DNA from: Salinibacter altiplanensis
GTDB lineage: Bacteria; Bacteroidota; Rhodothermia; Rhodothermales; Salinibacteraceae
Assembly (NCBI RefSeq): GCF_002894645.1
Contig: NZ_NCQY01000009.1
Location: 457,676 to 521,675 of the forward strand
Length of the DNA: 64,000 nt
Reading direction: 5' to 3'
The position numbers were made by a program, and so were the translations under genes. The notes under the pieces were generated by a model that saw only the letters and a list, made by a program, of their open reading frames with translations, was not told the DNA's origin and made no database searches. Positions 47,450-62,690 of the stretch are shown in pieces. How positions within the stretch are numbered: the stretch's first letter is position 1; every line of letters begins with the position of its first letter.

Positions 47450-48715
47450 ATGGCCACACCTCTGGTTTTTGGACTTGTCGGAAGCATGGTCGCCGGGGGG
47501 CTGGTGACGGTGTTTCTCACCGGCTTCGTGTCCGAGCAGGCCCCTCGCCTTGGCCTGCTGGACCGCCCGACGCAGGCCCGAAAGGTCCACACCCGCACCA
47601 CGCCGACGGGCGGCGGGCTCGCAATCGCAGTGGGACTGACGACGGGGCTCGGGCTGCTCTGGGGCTTCTGGGGGGCGTTTCCCGAGGCCGTTCAGTCCCT
47701 CTCGTTCTGGGGCGGGGCGGCGGTGATGCTCGCCACAGGATTCTGGGACGACCGGCACGCTCTCGACGCAAAGGGCAAGTTTGCCCTCCAGCTCGGGGCC
47801 GCCTACCTGCTCCTCCACTCCGGCACGGTCCTGCCGCTTCCAGGCGGGGGGCCCGACTCGCTCACAACCGGCGTGGCTGCCAGAGCGCTTCCTTTCACCG
47901 AGGCCCTTTACGTGATCCCACTGTCGATGCTCTGGGTCGTGGGCATCATCAACGCCATCAACCTGATAGATGGCCTCGACGGCCTGGCGACGGGCATTCT
48001 CGGCATTGCGTTCTTGTCGTGCGCCGTTCTCTTCGGGTTCAAAGGAGAGGTCGGACTCATGGCCGTCGGCGTCGTGACCGCGGGGGCCCTGGTCGGCTTC
48101 CTGCCGCACAACTTCAAGCCTGCCTCCATCTTCATGGGGGACGCCGGGAGCCTCTTCCTCGGCTACCTGCTGGCCGGGTACACGCTTCAGGGCCCCCTTC
48201 ATCCCGATCCCGCCCTCGCACTCCTCATCCTTCCCATTCTTCTGGGCGTCCCCATCCTGGACACCGGAACGGCGATTGTCCGCCGCGCCCTCTCGACCCG
48301 TACCATTTTTGCCCCGGATCGTCGCCACGTCCACCACTGCCTGGTCGACCAGGGCTCGGAGCGAAGCGCCGTGCTCACGCTGTACGGCGTTGGGGGCTGG
48401 TTTGGGAGCGCGGCCGTGCTGATGGGCGTGCTGCCTGCGGTGTGGGGGTACCTGTTGGCAAGCAGCACCGCAGTAGTCGCCCTCGTGTGGGCCTGGCATC
48501 TCGGCTGCCTTACCCCCATGCCGGCCGCCAGCGACGAGCGCACCCCCCCACGTCCCACCGGCGTGCTTGCCGAGAAGCCGCTTTCCATGCCGGCCGACAT
48601 CATGGACCCGGAGCACGCGGCGTCGATGGGGGACGATGCCCCCTCATCGGACACCGACCACGCCCCGCCGGCCCGTGAGCGGGATGCGGAGGCAGCCCCC
48701 ACCACCGTCCCGTAG
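47450..48715 (+). CDS. WecA/MraY-family undecaprenyl-phosphate sugar-1-phosphate transferase
   Basis: A 421-residue inner-membrane protein with about ten helices. It has HTRTTPTGGGLAI (residues about 45-57), the Mg-binding FWDDRHALDAKGK, NAINLIDGLDGLATGI, and the HVHHCL motif, all hallmarks of the family that loads a sugar phosphate onto undecaprenyl phosphate. It starts O-antigen, capsule or enterobacterial common antigen-like glycans. The last 60 residues are an acidic tail. ATG 47450 was selected over an upstream start that adds an Arg/Pro-rich stretch. It ends 39 bp before the nucleotidyltransferase gene that opens the lasso block. Confidence 0.92.
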   Translation: MATPLVFGLVGSMVAGGLVTVFLTGFVSEQAPRLGLLDRPTQARKVHTRTTPTGGGLAIAVGLTTGLGLLWGFWGAFPEAVQSLSFWGGAAVMLATGFWDDRHALDAKGKFALQLGAAYLLLHSGTVLPLPGGGPDSLTTGVAARALPFTEALYVIPLSMLWVVGIINAINLIDGLDGLATGILGIAFLSCAVLFGFKGEVGLMAVGVVTAGALVGFLPHNFKPASIFMGDAGSLFLGYLLAGYTLQGPLHPDPALALLILPILLGVPILDTGTAIVRRALSTRTIFAPDRRHVHHCLVDQGSERSAVLTLYGVGGWFGSAAVLMGVLPAVWGYLLASSTAVVALVWAWHLGCLTPMPAASDERTPPRPTGVLAEKPLSMPADIMDPEHAASMGDDAPSSDTDHAPPARERDAEAAPTTVP

Positions 48716-48754
48716 GCGGCCCCAACTCCTTCTCACCTTCTCACTGCAGGGCGT

Positions 48755-49933
48755 ATGGCGACTTCCCTGTTGTCTCCCTCGACCAAGACCGCTATTCTAG
48801 AGGATCCATCCTCCTCTAGTGCCCAGGCCGTTGCGTCTACGGAGATGTCCGATTCCGACGCCTACGCACTTGTTCGGACCTGTCTTTCGCACCGGTGCAG
48901 TGCAGCACGGCGCGAGACGGCCCAGTCGCTCCTCGAGTCTGGTGTGGATTGGGGGGCCGCCCAGCGCCTGGCGCGTTGGCACCGCGTGCTCCCCCTTTTC
49001 CTTCACAACGTGACGGAGCTGCTCGGCCCCGAGCTTCCTTCTGCGATGCGTGAGCAGATTCGGGACCATCGACGGGGCGTTCGCATCCGCAACACATTTT
49101 TGGCCCAGGAGCTCAGCCGCGTATGTCAGCGGTTCGACGACGCAGGGCTCCCGCTTCTGGTCATGAAAGGCCCCGTGCTTGCCCAGGCCGCGTACGGCGA
49201 CATTGCCCTGCGGCACTCCGTGGACGCGGACGTGGCGATTCCCAGCGATCAGTTTTCCGAGGCCGACCGTCTCCTGAAAGACCTCGGGTACGAGCACGCG
49301 TCGAAGCGCACCGGAATGTGGGAATGGCAGGCGTCTCTGTCTCGCTACCTCGACGGCCAGTGGGAATTTACGCGGGGGGACACATTTACCCTGGACGTGC
49401 ACACGCGGCTGATGCCGCCGGGGTACTCATTCCCCCCCGACTTTCAGTCCTTCTGGGAGCGAGCACGGCCCGTTCAGCTCGGCGATACGGGTTCGGTTCC
49501 GGGCTTCTCCCCGGAGGATCGGCTCCTGGTGCTGGTCCACCACGGGATCAAAAATCAGTGGCGGGCCCTGCGCCACGTTGCCGACATTGCCGCCGTTGTC
49601 CAGCGAGAAGACGATCTACAATGGGAACGGCTGCTCGCCCGGGCAGAACGGATGGACGCCGCCCGTGCCCTGAAGCTGGGTCTGTACATGGCCCACGACC
49701 TCTTGGGGGGGATGCTCCCGGACCGGGTCCACGACTGGGCCTCAGGGCCACCGGTGCAGAACGTCGCCGCTCCTCTACAAGAGTACCTGGCGAACCGGCC
49801 CGAACGACAATCCCTCCCATACGGGGCGCGCGTGCAGATGCAGCTCGCGACGAAAGACACCCTTGCGGGCCAGGTCCGCTACGGCGCCCACTCGCTTCTG
49901 CAACATTTGTGGTCCGCAGTGCTTAGGTCTTAA
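48755..49933 (+). CDS. Nucleotidyltransferase-family protein (NTP_transf_5 type), lasso-cluster accessory
   Basis: A 392-residue protein. The nucleotidyltransferase-like core is LPLLVMKGPVLAQAAYGD then ALRHSVDADVAI, with a D-x-D metal site, and a later LDVHTRLMPPGY and DRLLVLVHHGIKNQWRAL. This matches the uncharacterised nucleotidyltransferase family often found in lasso-peptide clusters that also carry HprK-like kinases, where it is thought to help further phosphate or nucleotide modification of the peptide. The first 30 residues are Ser-rich and probably flexible. It is 39 bp after the WecA-like gene and 33 bp before the RRE gene, suggesting one transcript. Confidence 0.8.
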   Translation: MATSLLSPSTKTAILEDPSSSSAQAVASTEMSDSDAYALVRTCLSHRCSAARRETAQSLLESGVDWGAAQRLARWHRVLPLFLHNVTELLGPELPSAMREQIRDHRRGVRIRNTFLAQELSRVCQRFDDAGLPLLVMKGPVLAQAAYGDIALRHSVDADVAIPSDQFSEADRLLKDLGYEHASKRTGMWEWQASLSRYLDGQWEFTRGDTFTLDVHTRLMPPGYSFPPDFQSFWERARPVQLGDTGSVPGFSPEDRLLVLVHHGIKNQWRALRHVADIAAVVQREDDLQWERLLARAERMDAARALKLGLYMAHDLLGGMLPDRVHDWASGPPVQNVAAPLQEYLANRPERQSLPYGARVQMQLATKDTLAGQVRYGAHSLLQHLWSAVLRS

Positions 49934-49966
49934 GCCCATTCTTTGCTTCACAAATTGTACACACTC

Positions 49967-50254
49967 ATGGAGAGCACGACACTGACCGAGTCGTCCATCG
50001 TCGTCGCGGCGGAGCACCTCACCTCCACCGAGGTAGATGGAGAAAGCGTCATACTCGACCTTGAAGGGGGCATCTATTACGGACTCAATCCGACTGGAGC
50101 TCGGATCTGGAGTGAGATTCAAGAGCCAGTGACAGTTCAGGAGATCGTCTCGGCAATTACCTCTGAATATGACGTGAGAGAAGAAAAGTGTCTGGAAGAT
50201 ATCACCTCTCTGCTCACTGATTTGCGAAAAAATGAACTTATTAAAATTAATTGA
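49967..50254 (+). CDS. PqqD-like RiPP recognition element (lasso B1), copy 1
   Basis: A 95-residue winged-helix protein of the PqqD family. It shows the shared pattern: DGESVILDLEGGIYYGLNPTGARIW, then IVSAITSEYDV and SLLTDLRKNELI (the first quoted across two strands). Such RRE proteins bind the leader peptide of a RiPP precursor and deliver it to the processing enzymes. It is homologous to the second copy at 56520. GC content falls within the gene: about 65% over its first 60 bases, near 43% by the end. It is followed by the kinase gene. Confidence 0.88.
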   Translation: MESTTLTESSIVVAAEHLTSTEVDGESVILDLEGGIYYGLNPTGARIWSEIQEPVTVQEIVSAITSEYDVREEKCLEDITSLLTDLRKNELIKIN

Positions 50255-50261
50255 AATTAGA

Positions 50262-50286
50262 AAGAATTATTCATTTTTTAATTCTT
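50262..50286 (+). other. AT-rich hairpin between RRE-1 and kinase-1
   Basis: AAGAATTA (50262-50269) and TAATTCTT (50279-50286) form a perfect 8-bp stem with a T-rich loop. It lies in the gap before the kinase gene. It could be a weak terminator or an mRNA processing site. Confidence 0.4.
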
Positions 50287-50312
50287 ATGTATGAACATCT
50301 AAATGATACATT

Positions 50313-51227
50313 ATGTGTAGCAAAAGGCACAATTTTTACCTATCCAATGGTCTTACCATAAGATCAAACCTAGCTCTACCGGAACTACATGAGCATGTAG
50401 AAACAGAGAACCCAGACATAAAGGTAAAGGTTAAAAAAGGAAAGGACTACGTAGAACTAAGTAAAAAGGAAAGTTTAGAGGCCCAACGTGAAGAAAAAAA
50501 GTTAATATATGCTGTACCGGATGTAGCTTATATAAGAGTCAAAAATGGAAAAAGTATAGATGTATACCCCAGAAAAGAAGCCGAAGAAAAAGTATTAAGA
50601 CTTTTCGTACTAGGAATTGCCTATGGTGCACTTCTCCACCAAAGAGGAAACCTTGTTCTTCACTCCAGCGCTATATCGACATCTGATAGAGCATGTCTAT
50701 TCATGGGAGAGAAAGGGGCTGGAAAATCAACAACAGCCTCCATTTTTGTTAGAAGTGGATATTCCCTTCTGTCAGACGACTTAGTCGCTATCAAGGACGG
50801 CATTTCACCTACTGTACAACCAACCACGAGACACCTTAAGCTATGGGATGACGTAAATTCTATTGCGGAAGACATATCGGATAGGTGCTACCAGTCTCAC
50901 CCCGATGTAAAAAAATTTACTTCTCTTTTGAAAGGCAAAAATAACTCGTATAACTTCAATATTTGTTCTTCTTTTGTTCTAGAAAAGAGTAGGTCGCTGA
51001 GAATACGCCGGCTACGCCCATCGGAGTCCTTTCAAGAAATAATAAGGCATTCTTACATTTCTCCAAAAGTTATGGAATGCAAAAAAAGAAAGACAGAGCA
51101 CTTCAGAATATCAGCCAACTTTGTGGAATCAGTTCCTATGTATAAGCTTTATCGCCCCAACGACTTTTCAAAGTCATCTGCTCTGGTCAAGCTAGTCGAA
51201 AGTACCCTAAATGGCAAGAAATTATAA
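50313..51227 (+). CDS. HPr kinase-like lasso-peptide kinase, copy 1
   Basis: A 304-residue protein. The Walker A loop GEKGAGKST is at residues 132-140 and the SDDL motif at 154-157, both as in HPr kinase/phosphorylase and its RiPP relatives. Relatives in paeninodin-type clusters phosphorylate the lasso peptide, typically on a C-terminal serine. Its GC content is near 37-40%, far below neighbours, and codon choice favours A/T third bases, so the gene is probably foreign. The TAA stop overlaps the ATG of the cyclase gene by one base (TAATG), showing translational coupling. Confidence 0.85.
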   Translation: MCSKRHNFYLSNGLTIRSNLALPELHEHVETENPDIKVKVKKGKDYVELSKKESLEAQREEKKLIYAVPDVAYIRVKNGKSIDVYPRKEAEEKVLRLFVLGIAYGALLHQRGNLVLHSSAISTSDRACLFMGEKGAGKSTTASIFVRSGYSLLSDDLVAIKDGISPTVQPTTRHLKLWDDVNSIAEDISDRCYQSHPDVKKFTSLLKGKNNSYNFNICSSFVLEKSRSLRIRRLRPSESFQEIIRHSYISPKVMECKKRKTEHFRISANFVESVPMYKLYRPNDFSKSSALVKLVESTLNGKKL

Positions 51228-53305
51228 TGAGCGGAATTGCTGGAATTGTAAGCCTGGGGGGGCGAGGGTCTGTTCGCCGAGACATAGAGACTATGATTCA
51301 GGGAATCCGTCACAGGGGTCCCGATGCCCATGGTAGCTGGGTCAACTCGAAAGAGACGGTTGGTTTGGGACATTCGCTACTGGAAACAACTCCACAAGCA
51401 GAACTCGAAGACCAGCCCTGGCGCGGTAGGAACAAGAGAGTATATCTCGTGGCTGATGCTCGACTTGATAACCGAGACAAGCTGACCCAAATACTGGACT
51501 GTAAAAACCGCCGTATCTCATCCGTCACCGACCCCGAAATTATTACCCTTTCGTACCTCAAATGGGGAAGAGATTGTGTAAATTACCTGATTGGCGATTT
51601 TTCGTTCTCGGTGTGGGATGAGTCCAATCACTCATTTTTCTGTGCCCGAGACCCCATGGGCGTGAAGCCGTTTTATTACGCGAAAACCAGTTCTTCATTT
51701 GCATTTGCATCGGAATCTCGCCCGATTCTTTCTCTTCCTTTTGTAACAGACAGCATCAATGAGAAGCATGTAATTACATTTCTTTCTGGGGGATACGGGT
51801 CCCGCGCAGAAACGTCCTTTAAAGAGATTCAGAAGCTAAAACCGGGACACACACTACATGTAACACATGAGCTATCAATGACCTCCAGAAGATACTGGAA
51901 CCCGGCAGACCATATTGAGAGGGCAGATCGTTGGAATGATCATGAATACGAGCAAGGATTCAAAGACGTATTGAATGAAGCTGTACAGGCACACCTCCGA
52001 AGTAATACCGGAGTTGGAATTCGACTCAGCGGTGGGATGGACTCTTCATCAATTGCGTCGCTCGCGAATGCCTCTAGTCCTGGCTCCTCTTCTTCAATCT
52101 ATACCTTTTCCGGCATCTTTCCCTCGCTTCCTGAAGAAAAGAAGCACCGAGTCGACGAGCAAAAGTACATCGATGCCGTCCTAAAAGGAGCTCAATTTAA
52201 GTCTTTCTTCATTGATGCCTCCAAGTTGAGTCCTTTTCTCGGACTGGATGAAATGGTTGAGATGCGCGGGGAGCCATTCAATTTACATGCCCATTATCTG
52301 CTATACAAAACCCTGGGCATAGCTCAGCAACACAACGTTCGGAACCTTCTGGACGGCTCAGAAGGGGATGCGGTCGTTGGATATGGACATGACTTCTTCA
52401 TTGAGTTGGCTCGGGCTGGCGAATGGGAGAGATTCACCGAGCTCGCTGTTCGGTACTCCGAAAACTGTCGTCAGGCAGGTAGACATTATCCACCCGAGAA
52501 AGCGTTTTGGGACCACGGACTTGAGCCGCTTCTGGAGTATCTTCGTTCAGGACAACCGGGCAAATATTATGGAAATGTCTGCCGTGTCACAGATCTCTTC
52601 GACATACCCCTTTCAAAAGTCCTAAAACGATCTATGTACTGGGTCTGGCCCAGCCAGTGGAGAAAGCGAATAGATCGTTTTCGAGGAAAGAGTGCTCTCG
52701 ATGTCATTTCAAGCCAAAAGCTGCGTAGACTCGGTGTTGATGGAGAAGAAAATCGTACGTCGACCGCTCCCACACACGTTCGGCACGCGCGCACCTTGCA
52801 GAAAAGTGCTGTGCTCACGAGTGCAATGGAGGCAGTAGATCCGATTTTTGCGGCTCACCATGCCGAAGCACGACATCCTTTCTTCGATCGCCGAGTTATC
52901 GAATACTGTCTTTCACTCCCTGCCGAACAGCGCATGAAGGGAGGATGGAGCCGCAGCATTTTGCGCAGGGCATTACGCGATGTGCTTCCGGATAAGGTGC
53001 AAAATCGCCTGGGAAAGGCGATGCTCGGGATTAATATCAAGCACAACTTACTTCATCACGAACAGAACAGGCTCTCTGAATTGGCTCGGGATGAGATACT
53101 TCAACCATTTGTAGACCGAGACGTAGTCGAAGGCCTCTTGAATCGATTTCAGGAGTCGCCCTCCAAACCATACTCATACGCTGTTGGACCTCTGCTGAGG
53201 GTCGCTGTTCTTGCGATTTGGCTCCGAAAAAGGAGGAATGGGAAGCTTGAAGGACCTTTGGAAACAACTCATGCTCCAAAAGAGAAAGAGGAGCAAAACC
53301 AATAG
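51227..53305 (+). CDS. Asparagine synthetase-like lasso cyclase, copy 1
   Basis: A 692-residue two-domain protein. The N-terminal glutaminase-like half begins MSGIAG, so the catalytic Cys2 of true class II amidotransferases is replaced by Ser, as is common for lasso cyclases. GIRHRGPDAHG and DARLDNRDKL follow. The synthetase half has the ATP-binding SGGMDSSS at residues 268-275 and a late AEARHPFFDRRVIEYCLSLP. Such enzymes adenylate an Asp/Glu side chain of the peptide and close the macrolactam ring. It lies between kinase 1 and precursor 1, and is low in GC. Confidence 0.88.
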   Translation: MSGIAGIVSLGGRGSVRRDIETMIQGIRHRGPDAHGSWVNSKETVGLGHSLLETTPQAELEDQPWRGRNKRVYLVADARLDNRDKLTQILDCKNRRISSVTDPEIITLSYLKWGRDCVNYLIGDFSFSVWDESNHSFFCARDPMGVKPFYYAKTSSSFAFASESRPILSLPFVTDSINEKHVITFLSGGYGSRAETSFKEIQKLKPGHTLHVTHELSMTSRRYWNPADHIERADRWNDHEYEQGFKDVLNEAVQAHLRSNTGVGIRLSGGMDSSSIASLANASSPGSSSSIYTFSGIFPSLPEEKKHRVDEQKYIDAVLKGAQFKSFFIDASKLSPFLGLDEMVEMRGEPFNLHAHYLLYKTLGIAQQHNVRNLLDGSEGDAVVGYGHDFFIELARAGEWERFTELAVRYSENCRQAGRHYPPEKAFWDHGLEPLLEYLRSGQPGKYYGNVCRVTDLFDIPLSKVLKRSMYWVWPSQWRKRIDRFRGKSALDVISSQKLRRLGVDGEENRTSTAPTHVRHARTLQKSAVLTSAMEAVDPIFAAHHAEARHPFFDRRVIEYCLSLPAEQRMKGGWSRSILRRALRDVLPDKVQNRLGKAMLGINIKHNLLHHEQNRLSELARDEILQPFVDRDVVEGLLNRFQESPSKPYSYAVGPLLRVAVLAIWLRKRRNGKLEGPLETTHAPKEKEEQNQ

Positions 53306-53397
53306 TGCTTGATAGTCTGCCTGAGTTACCCTCCTTTTAAGGTTGAGGAGTTCATTACTCACAAGATCGTACTTTCTTTCATCAAACCTCTAGTATC

Positions 53398-53544
53398 ATG
53401 AACCAGAAAGCTTGGAAGTCTCCAGAGTTAGTCGAACTTGACACCGTCGTCAATGCTACGGCTCAGAATGACAAAGTTGGGAGTGTATCTGACAGTGTTA
53501 CTCCCACTTCGGGCCTTGATGGAGAAATTCAGCCTGATCAGTGA
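53398..53544 (+). CDS. Candidate lasso precursor peptide 1 (unusual core)
   Basis: A 48-residue gene found 92 bp after cyclase 1. The leader MNQKAWKSPELVELD has the spacing of the RRE-binding motif YxxPxLxxxG-x5-T: Trp6 for Tyr, Pro9, Leu11, Asp15 for Gly, and Thr21. By the Thr(-2) rule the core would start at Gln23. There is no Gly, Ala, Ser or Cys start with an Asp/Glu 7-9 positions on that respects Thr21, but Asp32 falls at position 8-9 if the core starts at Asp25 or Asn24. The tail is acidic and Ser/Thr-rich and ends in Pro-Asp-Gln. A strong terminator follows. Position and size support a precursor; the product is uncertain. Confidence 0.65.
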   Translation: MNQKAWKSPELVELDTVVNATAQNDKVGSVSDSVTPTSGLDGEIQPDQ

Positions 53545-53887
53545 TGAGGTCGCCACAGTCCGCTCGTGAGTGGACTGCTCCATTGAGACAGAGTGAAGGG
53601 GAGGTCTCCTGGAGCAGTGTTTAGCTTGCTCAGGTGACCTCCCCTTTTTCTGTGTTGCGTGCAGCAACTGGCTTTACGGCCGCAGCCTCTCGGTGCAGTA
53701 TCAAAGCATACCTGTCCTGGGAGCCGTCAGGGGATGCACTCAAACTGAAAGAGATCTGAACACTGCTGGTACCCAACGAGCAAGTCTGGTGAGATCTCTT
53801 GCCGAGGTAGAAAAGGCGTCTGTCGGCCCAACGGGGCCGTAGAGGTGACCTTCAACCCGTTTCGTAAAGCTACTCTCTTTTTCGTGC
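53545..53887. other. Intergenic region after precursor 1
   Basis: It has two hairpins right after the precursor (53556-53577, CAGTCC/GGACTG, and the terminator at 53596-53650). Further on a 9-bp inverted repeat AAGAGATCT/AGATCTCTT lies at 53749-53757 and 53792-53800. No other small precursor gene was found on either strand. Confidence 0.55.
53596..53650 (+). terminator. Strong intrinsic terminator downstream of precursor 1
   Basis: AAGGGGAGGTC (53597-53607) pairs with GACCTCCCCTT (53636-53646), reinforced by inner GAGCA/TGCTC, and a T5 run follows. It stands 52 bp after the precursor stop and before the DUF192 and ABC genes. Terminators here usually let the precursor be transcribed more than the downstream genes. 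Confidence 0.88.
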
Positions 53888-54406
53888 ATGAACGGTTTCA
53901 CTACTTACCTTGCAGCTGCGTTTGTTCTTCTACTCCTGATCGCCGTCATTATTGTAGTTCGATCGGGACATCTTGGGAAAAGCAGTTTCATAGACCAACT
54001 TACCTACGAATGGAAAACAGTAGAGTTGGTCGATGCGTCCGGCAAGCGACTTGCCGAGGTCGATGCTAGAATTGCCAACACGCCAAAAAAACAGTACATT
54101 GGCCTTTCTAGAACGAAATTCCTTGGTTCTCGGGAAGGAATGCTCTTTATTCACGACTCAATGGATACACAGGTGTACGTCATGCGCCAAATGGACTTCC
54201 CCCTCGATATCCTCTTCATTGCACCAGATGGCGGGATCACGACGATTCACCAAGCAGAGTGCTCTTCTGGGGAACCCCCCGACTCTGATCTTCCACGCTT
54301 CCATGGGGAGGGGAAATACGTTTTAGAACTCTCGCTGGGAACCGCCAGCGAAGTTGGGCTTGATGAGACAGGACGGGTCGTCATTCCTGACTCGACTGAA
54401 TCTTGA
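53888..54406 (+). CDS. Membrane-anchored DUF192 protein
   Basis: A 172-residue protein. One N-terminal helix (YLAAAFVLLLLIAVIIVV) is followed by a DUF192 domain: VDARIANTPKKQYIGLSRT, EGMLFIHDSMDTQVYVMRQMDFPLDILFIAPDG (quoted across the match), YVLELSLGTASEVGL. DUF192 proteins are small, single-domain and of unknown role; the MxFPLDILFI motif is the hallmark. Why it lies inside a lasso cluster, between precursor 1 and the exporter, is unclear. It has the same intermediate GC as that block. Confidence 0.85.
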   Translation: MNGFTTYLAAAFVLLLLIAVIIVVRSGHLGKSSFIDQLTYEWKTVELVDASGKRLAEVDARIANTPKKQYIGLSRTKFLGSREGMLFIHDSMDTQVYVMRQMDFPLDILFIAPDGGITTIHQAECSSGEPPDSDLPRFHGEGKYVLELSLGTASEVGLDETGRVVIPDSTES

Positions 54407-54548
54407 ATCGAAACGGTTTCTCAACTCCGGTCAGCGAGTCCTTCCGACGGAAGAAGTTTTTGTACTCTTCTTCTTCCCTTTGGGTAATCCGGGAAAATAA
54501 TTGTCGTTTTCACGGCAAACAGCTCCAGCTCCACGTACAACGGACGAG

Positions 54549-56468
54549 ATGACTGACCGAAGCCTACCGACTTCCAACCAAGGTATCCAAAATGTCAGGC
54601 GTTTGCTGGCGTACGTACCTCGTGCATTGGAGCTCGTCTGGCAAGCGTCTTCCCGCTGGATGATCGGATGGGGACTTCTCTTGATGATTCAAGGGCTTCT
54701 CCCGGGTGCTAGCGTCTACTTAACCAAGTGGGTGCTGGACGGAGCATCCGAGGCAGTCGGAAATGGTCTAGCATGGACAAACGTCCAACTCATCGCCGTT
54801 CCGGGCGGCCTCATGGCACTCGTTTTGCTCCTCCAGCAGGTCACTCAATCCGCCAAGGGTTGGATTCAGACCGCCCAGTCCGAACACGTTGAAGACTACA
54901 TTCAGAAACGTATTCATGATCAGGCAGGCCGTCTCGATCTCGCCTTCTACGAGTCATCCGACTATTACGACACCCTTCACCAAGCTAGCACGCGGGCCAG
55001 CAGCAAGTCTCTGGAAGTGCTTCAGCAGCTGGGAAGCCTTCTGCAAAATGGTATTACCCTGGGTACGATCGTCATACTACTAGTTCCGTACGGGCTTTGG
55101 ATTCCACTAGTGCTCATCCTAAGTACGCTGCCGGCGCTCTACGTGGTGGTTAAGCACAACCAGAAGTACCACGACTGGTGGGAGAAACGCACTATGGAGC
55201 AGCGACAGGCCCGGTACTACGACATGATGCTGACATACGACTTCGCGGCTCAGGAAATTCGAGCGTTCGATTTGGGAGACTACTTTGCCGAGGCGTACAG
55301 CGACCTACGGGAGTGGCTCCGCCGTGAGCATATTGATTTAGAAAAAAACAAAAGTTTGGGCACTATCGGGGCCGGGCTGACGGCCCTTGCCGTCATGGGA
55401 GCCGTCATGGGAATTATGGTATGGCGAGCCATGCGTGGATTCGCGACGATCGGAGATCTGGGACTCTTTTACCGGTCGTTTCGAGAGGGGCAAGGCCTGA
55501 TGCGGAATCTGCTCCAAAACGCAGGGAAGCTCTACACGAACGCCATGTTTCTTGAGCACCTCTTCGACTTCTTATCATTAGAGCCGACGATTCAAGATCC
55601 AGCTGATCCACGTGAGGGACGCTCCATTCCCAAGAAAAAAATCAAATTCAACAACGTCTCTTTCCGGTACCCAGACACAGATTTCTATGTGCTAGAAGAC
55701 TTTTCTCTTTCCCTGTCTGCTCAAAGGGTTACCGCTGTCGTTGGCGAAAATGGAGCCGGCAAGACGACATTGTCGAAGCTCCTCGGGCGCCTCTATGATC
55801 CACAGGACGGACAGGTGCTCATTGATGGAGTTGACATCCGAGAGTATCGAATTAAAGACTTACGCAAGCAGATCACGACGTTGTTTCAGCAGCCGATGCG
55901 CTATCAGGCAACGGTGGCCCAGAACATTCGGTTCGGCGATGTGGACCGCGAGAAAAATAGAGAAGCGCTGGAGGAAGCCGCCCGCCAGGCGATGATCCAC
56001 GAGACCATCCAGAATCTCCCAGACGGATACGACACCCAGCTCGGCCACTGGTTCGCAGGGGGGACGGACCTGAGCGGCGGGCAGTGGCAGCGCATCGCCC
56101 TGGCGCGAGCGTACTACCGCGACGCCCCCCTCGTCATTCTCGACGAGCCGACCAGCGCGATGGACTCCTGGGCGGAGAACGAGTGGCTCCAAAGCTTCGG
56201 GCGCCTCGTGGACGAGGGCCGGACCGCCTTCATCATCACCCACCGCTTCACGACCGCCATGCACGCAGACGTGATCCACGTCATGGACGACGGCGAGATC
56301 ATCGAGTCGGGCACGCACGAAGAGCTCGTGGACCAGGACGGGCACTACGCAACCTCCTGGCGGAACCAGGTAGAGCATGGATGGCGGGCCTCGGCCGATC
56401 CGGACCCGGAAAACGCACCCGTCTCTCCACCGGTCTCGTCGGGCAACGGCAACCCCCTACAGTCCTGA
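54549..56468 (+). CDS. Lasso-peptide ABC exporter (permease-ATPase)
   Basis: A 639-residue half-transporter. The first 330 residues hold about six membrane helices; the ATPase has Walker A GENGAGKTT (399-407), signature LSGGQWQR (508-515), Walker B LVILDEPTS, and TTLFQQP. There is no N-terminal C39 peptidase domain, which fits lasso D proteins, since the leader is removed by a separate B2 peptidase. It exports the mature peptide and gives immunity. GC rises sharply inside the ATPase domain, near 56000. ATG 54549 gives a compact N-terminus. It shares one exporter between both peptide sets. Confidence 0.92.
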   Translation: MTDRSLPTSNQGIQNVRRLLAYVPRALELVWQASSRWMIGWGLLLMIQGLLPGASVYLTKWVLDGASEAVGNGLAWTNVQLIAVPGGLMALVLLLQQVTQSAKGWIQTAQSEHVEDYIQKRIHDQAGRLDLAFYESSDYYDTLHQASTRASSKSLEVLQQLGSLLQNGITLGTIVILLVPYGLWIPLVLILSTLPALYVVVKHNQKYHDWWEKRTMEQRQARYYDMMLTYDFAAQEIRAFDLGDYFAEAYSDLREWLRREHIDLEKNKSLGTIGAGLTALAVMGAVMGIMVWRAMRGFATIGDLGLFYRSFREGQGLMRNLLQNAGKLYTNAMFLEHLFDFLSLEPTIQDPADPREGRSIPKKKIKFNNVSFRYPDTDFYVLEDFSLSLSAQRVTAVVGENGAGKTTLSKLLGRLYDPQDGQVLIDGVDIREYRIKDLRKQITTLFQQPMRYQATVAQNIRFGDVDREKNREALEEAARQAMIHETIQNLPDGYDTQLGHWFAGGTDLSGGQWQRIALARAYYRDAPLVILDEPTSAMDSWAENEWLQSFGRLVDEGRTAFIITHRFTTAMHADVIHVMDDGEIIESGTHEELVDQDGHYATSWRNQVEHGWRASADPDPENAPVSPPVSSGNGNPLQS

Positions 56469-56519
56469 CGATCACTTTCCTGGTTGACCTCCCGAACACC
56501 CCCCTGACATCAACCTGAC

Positions 56520-56813
56520 ATGGCCTCCCTCGAGGACTCCATCACGGCGACAGATTCGTTTGCAAGCGCCGAGGTAGACGACGAGCGCATTCTGTTGGAC
56601 CCCGAAACGGGAACCTACTACGGCCTGAATCCGGTCGGCGACCACGTGCTCCGTATGGTGGAGAGGGCGGACGCGGAACGCGTGTCGATCCGCAGCGTCG
56701 TCGATGCTCTGCACGATGCCTTCCCGGACGAGGACTACGACCGCCTCTCGGAGGACGTGTTGAAATTCGTCGATGAGATGGAAGACTTTGACCTTCTTCT
56801 CGTGCACGATTGA
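56520..56813 (+). CDS. PqqD-like RiPP recognition element (lasso B1), copy 2
   Basis: A 97-residue winged-helix protein. It matches copy 1 in order: VDDERILLDPETGTYYGLNPVG (in part), DHVLRMVERA, VVDALHDAFPDEDYDRLSEDVLKFVDEM. Its GC is high, like the core genome, unlike copy 1. It precedes cyclase 2 by 62 bp. It should bind the leader of precursor 2 by its Tyr/Pro/Val/Gly/Thr motif. Confidence 0.88.
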   Translation: MASLEDSITATDSFASAEVDDERILLDPETGTYYGLNPVGDHVLRMVERADAERVSIRSVVDALHDAFPDEDYDRLSEDVLKFVDEMEDFDLLLVHD

Positions 56814-56875
56814 CCCTTGCACCCGGCAATTGGGCAGAACGGCGACGTTCATAGTTTCATCCTCCCTCGTTTTGC

Positions 56876-58804
56876 ATGAGCGGCATCGCCGGCCTCTACC
56901 ACACGGACGGGCGCCCCGCAGACCGGCACGTCCTTCGTCGCCTTCTCGACGCCCAGTCGCATCGGGGGCCGGACGGCGAGGGCCGTTGGGACGGCTCCTC
57001 CATTTCCCTTGGCCACCTTGCGCTGGACACGACCCCCGAGGCACGCTGCGAAGATCAACCCCTGACGCACAGCGGCGACGACCTCGTGCTGACGGCCGAC
57101 GCCCGCATTGACAACCGCGACGAGCTGACCTCGAGGTTGGAACGCGGGCGCGACGACGGTCCTCCGGCAACGGACGCGGAGCTGATCCTGCGTGCCTATC
57201 GTCGGTGGGGCGACGAGTCTCCCGAGCACCTCCGAGGCGCGTTTGCCTTTGCCATCTGGGACGCCTCTCGGAATCGGCTCTTCTGCGCACGGGACCGGAT
57301 GGGGCTGCGGCCGCTTCACTACTGCTGGTCTGAGCCACACTTCGTGTTCGGCTCCGAAATCAACACCGTCCTCGCCCACCCGGCGGTGTCCCGCGAGATC
57401 AACGAGACGCGCGTTGCCGATTTTCTGGCCCGGATCCACCTGAGCAAAGAGTATACGTTCTACGAGGACATTTCGCGACTGCCTCCAGGGCACCACGCCG
57501 TAATCAATCGTGCCGGGATGCACACCAGCGCGTACTGGACGCTCACGCTTCCCGACGAGCGGAAGCTCGGCTCCGACGAGGCGTACGGCGAGGCGTTTCG
57601 GGAGGTGTTCGCGGGCGCGATAAAGGATCGGCTGCGGGCGGACGGAGATGCAGGGACGTTCTTGAGTGGGGGCCTCGACTCCTCCTCCATCACCGCCATG
57701 GCCCACAAGATCTCGTCGGGCCCCCTCCACACGTTCTCGGTCACCCACGAACAGATCCCAGAGGTGGACGAGAGTGCGTACATTCGGGCCGTCCTCGATC
57801 GGGGCGACTACCGGCCTCACCTCGTCGCCGGGGGCAACCACGACCTCCTGGCGGACTTCCCGGGCCACCTCGCCTCTCAGAACAAGGCCCCCCTGGCCCA
57901 CACGCCCTCCCTGATGCAGCTCCTGCACGAAGCCGTACACGATGCGGGGCTCAACGTCGTGCTCGACGGCCACGGGGGAGACGAGGTCACCTCCCACGGG
58001 CACGGCTATCCCCGCGAGTTGGCCCGCAACCGTCGGTGGGGGGCACTGATCCAAGATCTGCGGGGCAGCCTCCAGAACAAAGACCCATCCTGGCCAGGGG
58101 CATTTGCCGCGTACTGGCTCCGCTATGGGCGACTGCCGAATCGGATTGGAACGGGGCTGCTCCGCCTGCTCCAATCGGTCGGGCTGTCCGTTGGGAAGCG
58201 GGAGCCGCCGCGGCTGATAAGCGCGGACCTGGCCCGCCGCACACAGATGGCCGACCGACGGCGTCGCCACCGCAGGCAGGCCCCCGCGGCCGCCCCGACG
58301 GAACGCCAGTGTCATTTTCGCCAGGTATCGGGCACGATGCAGCCGGGCGCCTTGGAAGAGCTCAACCAAATGGCCAGTCTGCGGTCGGTGGAGCCGCGAT
58401 TCCCCTTCTGGGACCCGCGTGTCGTGGAGTTCTGTCTCTCTCTTCCCTCAGACGTGAAGCGGACGCGGGGGATCGGGCGGCAGATCCTGCGGTCCGGACT
58501 TCGGACAGTGCTTCCCGAGCGGATTCGGGCCCGCACGGACAAGTCCGAGTTTCGTCCCAGCGTGATTCAGGCCCTCACCCGTTCCTCCCTCGACGTGCAG
58601 ACCGTCATCGAGGGAATGGAAGACGCGCTCGCTCCGTATGTGGACATGAACGTCGCTCGCTCCACAACGGATCGGTTCGCCCAGGACCCATCAGGGGCAT
58701 CGCCGGCAGATGTCGTTTCAGTCTTACAGCTCCTCCGTTTAGGATTCTTCAGGATTAAAAGCAGAAATCCAAAAGATTATCAGGAGCCTCAGACAGCTTC
58801 GTAG
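56876..58804 (+). CDS. Asparagine synthetase-like lasso cyclase, copy 2
   Basis: A 642-residue protein. It opens MSGIAG (Ser at position 2 in place of the catalytic Cys), with SHRGPDGEGR and DARIDNRDEL in the glutaminase-like half. The synthetase half has SGGLDSSS at 264-271, DGHGGDEVTSHG and, near the end, EPRFPFWDPRVVEFCLSLP. It is diverged from copy 1 and rich in GC, except for its last 20 codons, which are AT-rich. It should adenylate Asp of precursor 2. The precursor gene follows 49 bp downstream. Confidence 0.9.
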   Translation: MSGIAGLYHTDGRPADRHVLRRLLDAQSHRGPDGEGRWDGSSISLGHLALDTTPEARCEDQPLTHSGDDLVLTADARIDNRDELTSRLERGRDDGPPATDAELILRAYRRWGDESPEHLRGAFAFAIWDASRNRLFCARDRMGLRPLHYCWSEPHFVFGSEINTVLAHPAVSREINETRVADFLARIHLSKEYTFYEDISRLPPGHHAVINRAGMHTSAYWTLTLPDERKLGSDEAYGEAFREVFAGAIKDRLRADGDAGTFLSGGLDSSSITAMAHKISSGPLHTFSVTHEQIPEVDESAYIRAVLDRGDYRPHLVAGGNHDLLADFPGHLASQNKAPLAHTPSLMQLLHEAVHDAGLNVVLDGHGGDEVTSHGHGYPRELARNRRWGALIQDLRGSLQNKDPSWPGAFAAYWLRYGRLPNRIGTGLLRLLQSVGLSVGKREPPRLISADLARRTQMADRRRRHRRQAPAAAPTERQCHFRQVSGTMQPGALEELNQMASLRSVEPRFPFWDPRVVEFCLSLPSDVKRTRGIGRQILRSGLRTVLPERIRARTDKSEFRPSVIQALTRSSLDVQTVIEGMEDALAPYVDMNVARSTTDRFAQDPSGASPADVVSVLQLLRLGFFRIKSRNPKDYQEPQTAS

Positions 58805-58853
58805 CATAGAGCAATCACACACGTTTCAGAAAACCCAAACCAAGCGAAAAAGT

Positions 58854-59015
58854 ATGGAATACGTGCCCCCCACAGTAACAAGGTATGGGAATGTAGACGA
58901 GATGACCAAAGCGTCAGGACACGGGTATGACCTAGACATTTTTATACATGTGAGTAGGGGACACATAGAAGATATTGATGCTTCTTGGGGGAACCACGAC
59001 CCTTCCGGCTGTTAG
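58854..59015 (+). CDS. Lasso precursor peptide 2
   Basis: A 53-residue gene found by reading the gap after cyclase 2. The leader MEYVPPTVTRYGNVDEMTK matches the lasso leader rule exactly: Tyr3, Pro6, Val8 (hydrophobic position), Gly12 and Thr18. Thr at -2 puts the core at Ala20. Asp26 and Asp28 then lie at core positions 7 and 9, both usable for a 7- or 9-residue ring; starts at Ser21 or Gly22 would also give a legal ring. The core is long (34 residues) with His, Trp and acidic residues, and ends Pro-Ser-Gly-Cys. A C-terminal Cys is unusual. The gene sits in an AT-rich island, which also covers the ends of both flanking genes. Confidence 0.88.
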   Translation: MEYVPPTVTRYGNVDEMTKASGHGYDLDIFIHVSRGHIEDIDASWGNHDPSGC

Positions 59016-59224
59016 CCCTGCGCGGGTCCGGAAGAACACGGCTCTGGACGGGCGTACGCGACGCGAACGCTGCGGGGAGAACAGTTGCAAACAGAAATAG
59101 GGTAGGCTCTCAAATCTGGAAGAGCGATGTTTCTTTTCGCGGAAAACGTACCACCGGGCAATCCCGGAGGAATTTCCCTGCCGTCTTGGGACATCCTTCT
59201 GAAAACTCAACGTTGAACTTCACT

Positions 59225-60193
59225 GTGCACGAAGTTTCTCGACATACATTCGATTATCGTGTTCATGGATTGCGTTTGAGATCAGGCTTTCGGCTTGGCC
59301 GGATCAACCCCCTGACGTCTTGTTCCCAATTCGGGCTGTCAGACGCGACCTATCTTAGAAGCGAACCGATAGAGGCGACTGAGAGTGAGACAACACGAAT
59401 CGATGTTTCCGAAGGAAAAGTTCGAATTCGTTCTCAATTTGGCAGCATCGCAGTTAAACGAAATGAGGTAAAACTGCACCCAGTCCGAGAAAGTGGGGCT
59501 AAATCTCTGTTCTCCTACTACGCCGTATACATTCTCGGATTTCTACTCTATCACCGAGACTACTTGACCCTGCATGCAAGTGCCGTGGAGGTGGACGGGG
59601 GAACAGTTGCATTTGTCGGGCCCAAGGGTATGGGCAAGTCGACCACGGCCTCGATGTTCTACGAACGGGGGCACAAGCTTCTCTCCGACGACCTCATTGC
59701 GTGCCGGCCGTCTTCGACGGACGCCCCGCCGCGCGTCGCCCCCGGATTCCCGTGGATGAAGCTGGGCGAGTACTCGCTCGGCGAGGTCTTCGAGCGCAGC
59801 GGCGACGGGCTGGAGCGGTCGGTGCCGAACTCCTCGAAGCGAATAGTGCCTACCCACGAGCGCCAGCCGGATTCTCCCCTGCCCCTGCGACACATTTACG
59901 TGCTCGGCTACCACGACGACAATCAAGGCCCGCAGGAGGTGAAGATCGAACGGGTTGGGGCCAAGCAAGCGTGCCTGGTCCTGCTCTCCAACGCGTTCGT
60001 GCAGATGTTTCTGGAGGAGGCGGGCGCGGACCCGGAGCACCTCGACCGGTGTGCGGCATTGGCCCGGCGGGTCCCCGTGTCCGTGCTCGTCCGCCCACAG
60101 TCGAGGGATGCCCTTCCCTCCATCTACGAGGCCGTCCTTCGGGACACTGAGTCCACGCGCTCCTCGAATGCCCCTGGGAACGTTTCACAGTAA
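59225..60193 (+). CDS. HPr kinase-like lasso-peptide kinase, copy 2
   Basis: A 322-residue protein from the GTG at 59225. This start was chosen because it places Walker A (GPKGMGKST) at residues 132-140, exactly where copy 1 has it from its ATG, and the opening aligns with copy 1. An in-frame upstream extension to 58985 would overlap precursor 2. SDDL follows at 154-157. It should phosphorylate precursor 2, yet that peptide lacks a C-terminal Ser (Ser51 is third from the end). The first 115 codons are AT-rich; the rest is high-GC. Confidence 0.85.
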   Translation: MHEVSRHTFDYRVHGLRLRSGFRLGRINPLTSCSQFGLSDATYLRSEPIEATESETTRIDVSEGKVRIRSQFGSIAVKRNEVKLHPVRESGAKSLFSYYAVYILGFLLYHRDYLTLHASAVEVDGGTVAFVGPKGMGKSTTASMFYERGHKLLSDDLIACRPSSTDAPPRVAPGFPWMKLGEYSLGEVFERSGDGLERSVPNSSKRIVPTHERQPDSPLPLRHIYVLGYHDDNQGPQEVKIERVGAKQACLVLLSNAFVQMFLEEAGADPEHLDRCAALARRVPVSVLVRPQSRDALPSIYEAVLRDTESTRSSNAPGNVSQ

Positions 60194-60342
60194 GGAACCG
60201 ATGGGAAAAGACCCTTCGCCCTTGCCTAGCGGTTCCGCCACACGCGGAGATTGTCCTGACCGGCTTGGCCCCATCGTCACCACGAGCCGCGCTTCGTCCC
60301 TCAGCAGACCTCGATGCCTTCTCAGCTTGCCCCGGACGCCCC

Positions 60343-60819
60343 GTGAACGTCATCGTGCGCACGTTTCGAAAGTTGTGGCAGCACCCCTGGCAAAACTGGG
60401 GACTGCTCCTACACGCCGCGGCGTTGACGGTCGGCATCCGGACGGGTCTCGCCGCGGCCTCCCTGAGCCACATGACTCGGGGGCTGCGGCGCGTGGCGAC
60501 AGGCCTTCCCCAGACGCGAGACGCTACGCCCCGGTACCGCAGGCGCGCCGCCTGGGCGGCCCACGCGGTGGGACGGCGCCTTCTCCCCGAGCGGCCCTGC
60601 CTCACGCAGGCCCTCGTCCTGCAATACCTGCTGCTCCGCCGTGGGGACGACGCAGCCGAGCTCCACATCGGCGTCACGAAGGATGAGGACGACACGCTTC
60701 AGGCCCACGCATGGGTCGAGCGCAAGGGACACGTTTTGATTGGAGGGATGGACGCGCCCGGGACCTACGAGCGCTTCGAGGACCTTGGGGAGAAGATGGA
60801 GGCCGCAAACGCCCCCTAA
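60343..60819 (+). CDS. Lasso-peptide biosynthesis B2 leader peptidase (transglutaminase-like)
   Basis: A 158-residue protein from GTG 60343. The key words of the B2 family are RPCLTQALVLQYLLL, with catalytic Cys86, and LQAHAWVE, with His122; the acidic third residue may be Asp137. B2 enzymes cut the leader just after the Thr(-2) site once the RRE protein has delivered the precursor, freeing the amine for ring closure. Only one B2 is seen, though there are two RRE proteins and two cyclases, so it must serve both or precursor 1 uses a protease elsewhere. A start at GTG 60355 is also possible. Confidence 0.88.
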   Translation: MNVIVRTFRKLWQHPWQNWGLLLHAAALTVGIRTGLAAASLSHMTRGLRRVATGLPQTRDATPRYRRRAAWAAHAVGRRLLPERPCLTQALVLQYLLLRRGDDAAELHIGVTKDEDDTLQAHAWVERKGHVLIGGMDAPGTYERFEDLGEKMEAANAP

Positions 60820-60876
60820 AGCCGCTCTCCAAGACCGGTGGAGTAGATGCTATTCTCGACGCCAGGGCGTGCATCC

Positions 60877-60899
60877 TCCCCAACGGAGTCTGTTGGGGA
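60877..60899. terminator. Hairpin at the end of the lasso block
   Basis: TCCCCAAC (60877-60884) and GTTGGGGA (60892-60899) form a perfect 8-bp stem with a 7-base loop, 57 bp after the B2 gene. It lacks a T-run, so termination would be weak or Rho-assisted. Confidence 0.5.
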
Positions 60900-61091
60900 A
60901 GCCCTTCCATTCGTTCTCCTTCACCGATCCAAAGGCGTACGACGGAGATCGAGACGGGCGTCACCTTATCGAGGGCCCCCGCTCGAACAGCAATTGCCGC
61001 CTTTCACGTCAACAATCGTTCGGTTCCCCTCCACATCACTCCAGGGAGGATGCAGCTGTCCATCTCACATGGCTTCCGACCGCCGTCCCTC

Positions 61092-62690
61092 ATGCCCATG
61101 TCGTTGACTGTCGCTTGTTGGTCGCTCCTTGGCCGCGCAGGCCGTGCCGTCCGTGGATCCCTCTTTTTCGGGGCAATTGTCTTTGCCGTCCTGCTTGGCA
61201 TTGCGGCCGCGTGCCCCGTCCAGGCCCAAAGCACACGGGCCGGGGACACGTTCTACGTGAAACTCGGCGGCGGGCTCTCCGACTACGCCGGCGGGAACGA
61301 CGGGTCTTTAGGCCTCGACCGGACGACCGAGCTACGAGAATTTTTTGACACCCGCAAGTTTACCGACCGCGACGCGTTTCCGTACGTGCTCGTCGGCGAG
61401 CTGGGCTACCAGTTCTCGCCGGGGCTCGGAATGGGGCTGGGCTACCAGTTCGGACAGTATCCCTTTGTCGACGGGGTGCCCTTTACCACCACCCCGGGCA
61501 CACAGGGCGAGGGCGGGGACCTCGGCCAGACGCGACACACAGTGCAGGTGCTTGCCCGATACACAGTTAGGGCGGCCGAGTGGACGCTCAGTCCGTACGT
61601 CGACGCGGGACTCAACGTGTCGTTGGGGGGATTCTCGACGGGGATCGGCCCTCTCGTGGGGGTCGGGGTGGACGCCTCTGTGACCGACCGCACGTCGCTG
61701 TTTCTTGAGGGCCGTCTCAACTTTACGTTCGAAGACGAGGCCGTCGACGGCATCACCACCGCAACCCGCGCGGATGCGCTCAGCGCCCTGCCGGCCATCG
61801 GGCTCAAGTATACGTTCGACCGGCCCGCGGTGCCGCCCCGCATTCTGGCACTGGACGGCCCGGTCGACGTGGTGGCCGGCGAGTCGGCGGCCTTCTCGGC
61901 CCGGGTCAATGAGGAGGAGGCGACGGCGCCCCTGACGTACGAGTGGGCATTTGGCGATGGGCGCTCCGCCTCTGGGCTCACGCCGTCCCACGTCTACAAC
62001 GAGCGCGGCACCTACACCGTCGCCTTCACGGCCCGCAACGAGGCGGGAACGGCCCGCGACTCTCTTTCGGTGAACGTCCTGCTTCCCCCCCGCATCGTGT
62101 CCCTCGACGCCGCCCCCCGTCCGACCTCGGAGGGCGAGCCGGTGCGCTTCAGCAGCGAGGTGGACGGCGCCCGGCCGATTGAACGGCGGTGGACCTTCGG
62201 GGACGGCACCACCGGCACGGGGCGCTCTCCCACTCACACCTACGACGAGCCGGGCGAGTACACGGTCCGCCTCCTCGCTGCCAACGAGGACGGGAAGGCC
62301 ACGGACTCGCTGGCCCTGCAGGTGGAGCGGACCCTCCCGGCGCTCTGCCAGACGGTGGAGGAGTTCAACACTGTGTACTTTGCCCTGGGGGCGAGTCAGC
62401 TCAGCCCCGAGGCAGAGCAGAAGCTACAGGAAAACGCGGAGGTGCTCCGCACATGCCCGAACCTGTCGGTCCGCGTGGAGGGCTTCGCGTCCCCGGACGA
62501 GCAGACCCCGCAGGCGCTCTCGGAGGCACGGGCCCAGGCAGTCGCCGCCTTCTACGAAGAAGGCGACATTGCCCCCGATCGGGTCACGACGAGCGGCGAG
62601 GGGGCCGTTGGCGATCCGGTCGGCAAGAAGGGCGCCGGCGACCAGAACCGCCGGGCCGACTCCCTGCCGCAGCGCGATGACGACCAGTAG
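61092..62690 (+). CDS. OmpA-like outer-membrane protein with two PKD domains
   Basis: A 532-residue exported protein. ATG 61092 precedes a hydrophobic signal ending in PVQAQ. A beta-barrel of about 180 residues follows (TFYVKLGGGLSDYAG, GYQFSPGLGMGLGYQFGQY). Then two PKD domains: YEWAFGDGRSASGLTPSHVY and RRWTFGDGTTGTGRSPTHTY. The end is an OmpA C-terminal domain (VYFALGASQLSPEAEQKL, LSVRVEGFASPDE) that binds peptidoglycan. The architecture suggests a structural outer-membrane tether. It is not part of the lasso block. Confidence 0.88.
   Translation: MPMSLTVACWSLLGRAGRAVRGSLFFGAIVFAVLLGIAAACPVQAQSTRAGDTFYVKLGGGLSDYAGGNDGSLGLDRTTELREFFDTRKFTDRDAFPYVLVGELGYQFSPGLGMGLGYQFGQYPFVDGVPFTTTPGTQGEGGDLGQTRHTVQVLARYTVRAAEWTLSPYVDAGLNVSLGGFSTGIGPLVGVGVDASVTDRTSLFLEGRLNFTFEDEAVDGITTATRADALSALPAIGLKYTFDRPAVPPRILALDGPVDVVAGESAAFSARVNEEEATAPLTYEWAFGDGRSASGLTPSHVYNERGTYTVAFTARNEAGTARDSLSVNVLLPPRIVSLDAAPRPTSEGEPVRFSSEVDGARPIERRWTFGDGTTGTGRSPTHTYDEPGEYTVRLLAANEDGKATDSLALQVERTLPALCQTVEEFNTVYFALGASQLSPEAEQKLQENAEVLRTCPNLSVRVEGFASPDEQTPQALSEARAQAVAAFYEEGDIAPDRVTTSGEGAVGDPVGKKGAGDQNRRADSLPQRDDDQ

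Follow-up and report, generated by a model that had tools for sequence, protein, structure and literature searches.

A probable composite lasso peptide locus in Salinibacter altiplanensis with two precursor and cyclase sets and a single leader peptidase and exporter

A 64,000-nucleotide stretch of DNA from the salt-lake bacterium Salinibacter altiplanensis (contig NZ_NCQY01000009.1, positions 457,676 to 521,675; here called the window) carries a lasso peptide locus at window positions 48755-60819, in which two sets of modification genes stand beside one leader peptidase and one exporter. The locus holds a nucleotidyltransferase (N), two recognition elements for ribosomally synthesized and post-translationally modified peptides (RiPP recognition elements, RREs; B1a and B1b), two HprK-like kinases (Ka and Kb), two lasso cyclases (Ca and Cb), two precursors (Aa and Ab), one exporter (D) and one peptidase (B2), all on the + strand. 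In the explanation that we consider likely, the locus is a composite: a foreign cassette of low guanine-plus-cytosine (GC) content fills its first slot, a second set (set b) follows, and the products of both are matured by the shared B2 and D. Expression and products being predicted from the DNA, one locus would thus make two lasso peptides. A preliminary description of this DNA had proposed two different modified peptides from one locus, a reading now supported by two distinct precursors. The interval that it assigned to the cluster (47450-60899) does enclose the lasso genes, but the WecA-like glycosyltransferase at 47453-48715 is not part of the set.

Pfam and NCBIfam scans place the genes named in that description at or near the positions and in the families given there, and bear out two cyclases, two RREs, two kinases, one exporter and one B2. 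Ca (51227-53305) and Cb (56876-58804) score 526.6 and 583.5 bits against the lasso cyclase model NF033535 (cut-off 525), which excludes them as ordinary asparagine synthetases; both begin with MSGI and lack the Cys of the MCGI start of glutamine-hydrolysing asparagine synthetases, and the ATP site of Ca reads SGGMDSSS. The leader peptidase B2 (60343-60819, from an inferred GTG start), whose family had likewise been a point to check, scores 84.9 bits with NF033537 (cut-off 33), and its catalytic Cys and His are invariant in 86/86 B2 relatives. B1a (49967-50254) and B1b (56520-56813) are discrete RREs of the PqqD family, with 76.7 and 45.0 bits against PF05402 (cut-off 23.4). Their matches in the PDB are PbaB1 (9x90) and TbiB1 (5v1u), the former being the best solved structure for B1a in a gapless alignment (2e-13), and the lasso_PqqD models match both proteins below their strict cut-offs. 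Matches of the kinases Ka (50313-51227; Hpr_kinase_C 1e-5, HprK_rel_A 2.2e-9) and Kb (59225-60193, from an inferred GTG start; Hpr_kinase_C 1.4e-6) to Hpr_kinase_C are sub-threshold, yet a P-loop and an SDD motif are present in both. On inspection of the translations, HxSA, GxxGxGKS and SDD are intact in each (HSSAI..GEKGAGKS..LLSDD in Ka), and Kb matches the HPr kinase 1ko7 across the P-loop and DD. N (48755-49933; PF14907, 207.5 bits, cut-off 31.2) is an NTP_transf_5 nucleotidyltransferase with a putative role in sugar transfer onto a peptide phosphate. D (54549-56468, with an alternative TTG start at 54501) consists of ABC_tran and ABC_membrane domains, with no C39 domain found in the Pfam scan.

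The two small precursor candidates of the preliminary description proved to be two distinct motif-bearing precursors, one after each cyclase. Small open reading frames (ORFs) on both strands of the window were searched for the leader motif [YW]xxPx[LVI]x9T with fixed spacing. Exactly two matches occur, at 53413 and 58860, in ORFs that begin 93 nt (Aa, 53398-53544) and 50 nt (Ab, 58854-59015) past the cyclase stops. First-order Markov sequences give a chance expectation of about 0.9 matches per 64 kb for both strands; because these could fall anywhere, yet both matches lie directly after cyclases, they are not attributed to chance. In both, the motif lines up in register with that of the other ORFs from related loci that carry it. 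Aa has a WxxP leader, WKSPELVELDTVVNATA, and the core QNDKVGSVSDSVTPTSGLDGEIQPDQ, or QNDKVGSVSDSVTPTSGLDGEIQPDQ without Q1; the T(-2) rule would place the boundary directly after WKSPELVELDTVVNATA, with the core opening as QNDKVGSVSD. Ab has a YxxP leader, YVPPTVTRYGNVDEMTK, and the core ASGHGYDLDIFIHVSRGHIEDIDASWGNHDPSGC, for which an Ala1-Asp9 ring is predicted from the residue spacing. The acidic residues of the Ab core at ring positions are Asp9 and Asp7, of which Asp9 is conserved in the sister species G011. The Ab of G011 has the leader MDSYTPPSVTKYGDAHEITG and a core opening as AVGHGWHFD, with the same Ala1-Asp9 spacing.

The two sets are not copies of each other. Identity is 28% between B1a and B1b and about 30% between Ca and Cb, and trees that join Ca with Cb are disfavoured (approximately unbiased test, p-AU 0.03), which excludes a recent tandem duplication of one set. 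The closest relatives of Cb, B1b and Kb are found in G011 (75, 81 and 65% identity), while in the genomes searched nothing exceeds about 40% identity to Ca or Ka. A blastn comparison of the window with G011 gives a 72% match over 48824-50176 (N and most of B1a), none over 50177-54600 although both flanks match, and about 77% from 54600 to 58780 (D, B1b and Cb), with further matches in Kb and B2. The unmatched segment, 50177-54600 on the + strand, is the exchanged cassette of Ka, Ca, Aa and a DUF192 gene, with a GC content of 39-50%. By gene, GC is 0.39 in Ka, 0.50 in Ca, 0.48 in Aa, 0.50 in the DUF192 gene and 0.49 in B1a, against 0.64-0.69 in N, Cb and B2; D is intermediate at 0.57, equally so in G011. 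Low GC is mainly limited to the slot between B1a and D.

In the sister species G021, the locus is of a single-lasso type, N-B1-C-A-K-GT-GT-HSD-D-B2, with B2 directly after D and set b absent. In G011, the genes in the slot from B1a to D are C-A-K, a pair of GT2 glycosyltransferases and a homoserine-dehydrogenase-like gene (HSD), alike in content and order to the slot of G021 (GT2 48 and 71%, HSD 82%). Trees that group Ca with the slot-1 cyclases of these two species are rejected (p-AU 4e-6). The comparison of sister species explains the slot layout of the window. The simplest history would start from an ancestral single-lasso locus, N-B1a-C-A-K-GT-GT-HSD-D-B2, gain set b between D and B2, and swap slot 1 in the window lineage. 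The frame around the slot is conserved: N is 68% identical to that of G011 and 48% to that of G021, B1a is 68% identical to its G011 counterpart, and D is 77-82% identical to the D of G011, G014 and G021. With dN/dS values of 0.09-0.25 between window and G011 for N, D, B1b, Cb, Kb and B2, this frame is under purifying selection.

Several observations weigh against the composite reading and must be set beside it. The tree placement of Ca is weak, on a long branch: in one tree it falls near the WxxP systems of G025 and Rhodothermus-type genomes, in another with G005. Aa was identified by its leader motif and position alone and is matched by no NCBIfam precursor model. Its first usable acidic residue stands at position 10 after T(-2)x, whereas known lasso rings have 7-9 residues. 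Neither core ends in Ser, Aa ending in PDQ and Ab in DPSGC. Finally, G014 has two cyclase sets and one D together with two B2, so B2 sharing is not universal in the genus.

Part of this evidence would also agree with a set a that is a recent foreign insertion, silent or decaying, leaving only set b to work with B2, D and N. The GC content of set a is low, the set was found in this genome alone among those searched, and its precursor is atypical. We nevertheless hold this to be unlikely, since none of Ka, Ca and Aa is truncated and the ATP sites are intact, Ca lies above the lasso cyclase cut-off, the Aa leader motif is intact and in register, and Ka and Ca are translationally coupled, the stop codon of Ka overlapping the start codon of Ca by one base.

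The composite reading further assumes that both sets draw on the same peptidase and exporter. From copy number and locus history, we infer that one B2 would serve both sets. B2 occurs once in the genome (G000, 3.59 Mb, 99.75% complete), which holds no further lasso cyclase above the NF033535 cut-off. G011, like the window, has two sets, one D and one B2, although its B2 lies about 10 kb off on the opposite strand, adjoining an outer-membrane protein (Omp) gene, the same neighbour as that of the window B2. Set a might instead work through another protease, the two pathways being merely neighbours, as its Rhodothermus-type relatives (G029 and G076) have the order K-C-A-D-B1 and no B2 within the 20 kb examined. 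To this we assign only a slight probability: the genome has no second B2, G011 keeps two sets with one B2, and in the G021 locus D and B2 are the own partners of the slot-1 set.

The two-set layout with one B2, described earlier as unusual, is real, but it is not unique, as it is found in G011 and, judged by gene architecture, in an uncultured Scytonema (L118). The latter, an independent case, is the one locus of 79 named loci outside the genus with two B1-C-K sets, one B2 and one D. In a Pleurocapsa locus (L137), two cyclases occur with a YxxP precursor, a WxxP precursor, a single B2 and a single D. In both G011 and G014, the B2-Omp pair is apart from the D-linked sets, and G015 has neither a lasso cyclase over the cut-off nor a B2. 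A WxxP lasso cluster of Cyanocohniella sp. LLY (L146; also L091) is without a B2 while another cluster of the same genome (L107) has one, so sharing of B2 in trans is possible there.

The position of the acceptor Asp in Aa bears on whether its product is a lasso at all. This Asp is at position 10 counted from T(-2)x, or at 9 if cleavage occurs one residue later. The first acidic residue from position 7 onwards was located in 79 ORFs that carry the motif in related loci, among them a few chance matches. Position 9 (41 ORFs) or 8 (15) is the usual place; in most of the WxxP precursors it is at 10-13, and Aa thus fits the WxxP subtype. The same holds mostly for WxxP precursors outside Bacillota (L094, L103, L106, L137, L143, L146, L153, L043 and the window ORF at 53413), compared with 8-9 in YxxP precursors; this difference suggests that the subtype is cleaved elsewhere or has another ring register. 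Two Rhodothermus-type loci also carry a third precursor (L214:12387 and L213:9229, - strand) with a Gly/Trp/His-rich core (SGWGRPPGLPWGGWGQRGG...), which cannot form a standard lasso because it has no acidic residue at ring positions.

The Asp at position 10 would suit an Aa product other than a lasso, either an LPP-like linear phosphopeptide or a macrolactam with another ring size, and LPPs are linear analogues of phosphorylated lasso peptides built with the same RRE and kinase parts (PMC13381572). This too we regard as improbable. LPP clusters have no cyclase and use a signal-peptidase-like protease (PMC13381572), whereas the window has a lasso cyclase coupled to Ka; other WxxP precursors beside lasso cyclases have an equally late acceptor; and a core from Asn2 gives a normal 9-residue ring, with metanodin as a precedent for Asn1 (PMC12670498).

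RRE specificity is set by leader Tyr versus Trp, read by RRE residues N33/D70 in LppB and G42/Q79 in PbaB1, and the engineered PbaB1 G42N/Q79D takes both leader types (PMC13381572). B1a has Asn and Asp at the two leader-reading sites and Thr at the I44 pocket site; B1b likewise has Asn and Asp. No W-specific signature was found in B1a, and because the Asn and Asp are kept, it is a Tyr-type RRE standing before a Trp-type leader. Its lineage serves YxxP leaders in sister species. Among the loci gathered, Asn and Asp are kept in 67/81 RREs beside YxxP precursors and in 2/9 beside WxxP precursors (B1a and L146), the others having Asp-to-Glu or Asn-to-Asp changes (at the D70 site, Fisher p 0.0015 for YxxP versus WxxP, uncorrected for relatedness). 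On the W side, the Tyr-binding Asp is Glu in L094, L103, L106, L143 and L153, and the Pro-fixing Asn is Asp in L043, L213 and L214. These substitutions are possibly a W-type RRE signature outside Bacillota, unlike the Gly42 of paeninodin RREs.

From these residues, B1a is predicted to bind both WxxP and YxxP leaders. B1b is unlikely to be the RRE of set a, as the K-C-A-D-B1 order in Rhodothermus and G025 might suggest, because it stays with Cb-Ab-Kb in G011, whose slot 1 differs. A tentative proposal, which we would not put at even chances, is a natural re-pairing: an imported WxxP cassette without an RRE was adopted by the resident B1a, so that one RRE takes both leaders and the single B2 and exporter mature two lassos from exchangeable slots.

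The assignment to the phosphorylated branch made in the preliminary description stands for the two HprK-like kinases and their motifs; phosphorylation itself is a prediction, and neither core has the terminal Ser. In paeninodin and pseudomycoidin, the C-terminal Ser is the kinase site, and in pseudomycoidin the phosphate is reported to be glycosylated in vivo (PMC8498205). BsfK-type kinases modify a Ser near the core N-terminus (PMC10368454). Neither core has a Ser or Thr at position 3, the BsfK site: Ab has Ser2 and Gly3, and Aa has Asp3 or, with a core counted from Asn2, Lys3. Because the Ab of G011 ends in DPS and that of the window in DPSGC, the DPS Ser of Ab is a candidate site for Kb; the Ser residues in GSVSDS of Aa are candidate phosphorylation sites. 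The sites in both cores are uncertain. By analogy, N may glycosylate the peptide phosphate.

Taken together, the proposed mechanism begins with an ancestral N-B1a-C-A-K-...-D-B2 locus in which the content of the slot from B1a to D would have been replaced by foreign Ka-Ca-Aa-DUF192, a complete second set, B1b-Cb-Ab-Kb, being carried between D and B2. In each branch, an RRE would grip the precursor leader, and an HprK-like kinase would phosphorylate a core Ser or Thr. The sole B2 would remove the leader presented by either RRE, the dedicated cyclase of each set would close the ring (Ala1-Asp9 for Ab), N may attach a sugar to the phosphate group, and the sole exporter D would secrete both products.

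The DUF192 gene (53888-54406, + strand; PF02643, 74.2 bits), which encodes a protein with a hydrophobic N-terminal stretch, was omitted from the earlier gene list, correct in the genes it gave, but sits within set a. It is probably a passenger of the cassette; a role as lasso tailoring or immunity gene is unsupported, with no homologue in the other lasso loci examined. An OmpA/PKD outer-membrane protein gene at window 60711-62690 adjoins B2, a pairing found in three species. In G014, a 2-oxoglutarate/Fe-type oxygenase-like gene (L038:13158-13862) lies between D and B2, the position of set b in the window, and this insertion point may be a general cassette slot. Just past set b in G011, a divergent pair of RRE-like and HprK-like genes (L207:2302-3704) could be confused with lasso parts and possibly belongs to a separate HPr-rel-A type system. 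Scans for sigma-70 promoters and terminators gave no excess over shuffled sequence.

The locus is a natural case in which to ask how RiPP pathways that lie side by side and have nearly the same leader motifs stay free of cross-talk, a question raised in 2026 for Bacillota (PMC13381572). It brings together leaders of the WxxP and the YxxP type, two RREs and one peptidase that would be common to both sets, and B1a bears the Asn/Asp pair that let engineered PbaB1 G42N/Q79D accept both leaders (PMC13381572). Its slot structure points to lasso loci evolving through the exchange of cassettes while peptidase and exporter stay fixed, which could help to direct combinatorial biosynthesis.

A search of the literature library used here found no paper on lasso clusters in Salinibacter. 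Several known systems share parts with the locus. Paeninodin (PadeK) and pseudomycoidin (PsmK, PsmN) likewise have discrete B1, B2, C and D with an HprK-like kinase and a WxxP leader as in Aa, and pseudomycoidin also has a nucleotidyltransferase like N (PMC8498205); both have one set per locus and modify a C-terminal Ser that the two window cores lack. The Bsf cluster of Bradymonas sediminis has the same A, B1, B2, C, D, K and N content, and its kinase acts near the core N-terminus, aided by B1 (PMC10368454), but it is a single set with an Ile(-2) leader and a Gly1-Asp8 ring. Co-localised LPP and paeninodin clusters (Popov et al. 2026, PMC13381572) have two RREs and one YxxP and one WxxP leader, as in the window. 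In that pair, the pathways have separate peptidases and the product of the second is linear, whereas the window has two lasso cyclases, a B2 and a D that both sets would share, and the Tyr-type Asn and Asp in both RREs. Rhodothermus-type clusters (NCBIfam rhodolasso; G029, G076 and G025) resemble set a in their K-C-A-D order and WxxP leaders but are single sets with B1 after D, and the cyclases of G029 and G076 are 32-34% identical to Ca. The Scytonema locus L118 has two B1-C-A-K sets with one B2, one D and one N, like the window, but it is cyanobacterial, both of its leaders are YxxP, and both of its cyclases fall in one cyanobacterial lineage. Against these systems, the Salinibacter locus is a new arrangement of known lasso parts in a composite layout.

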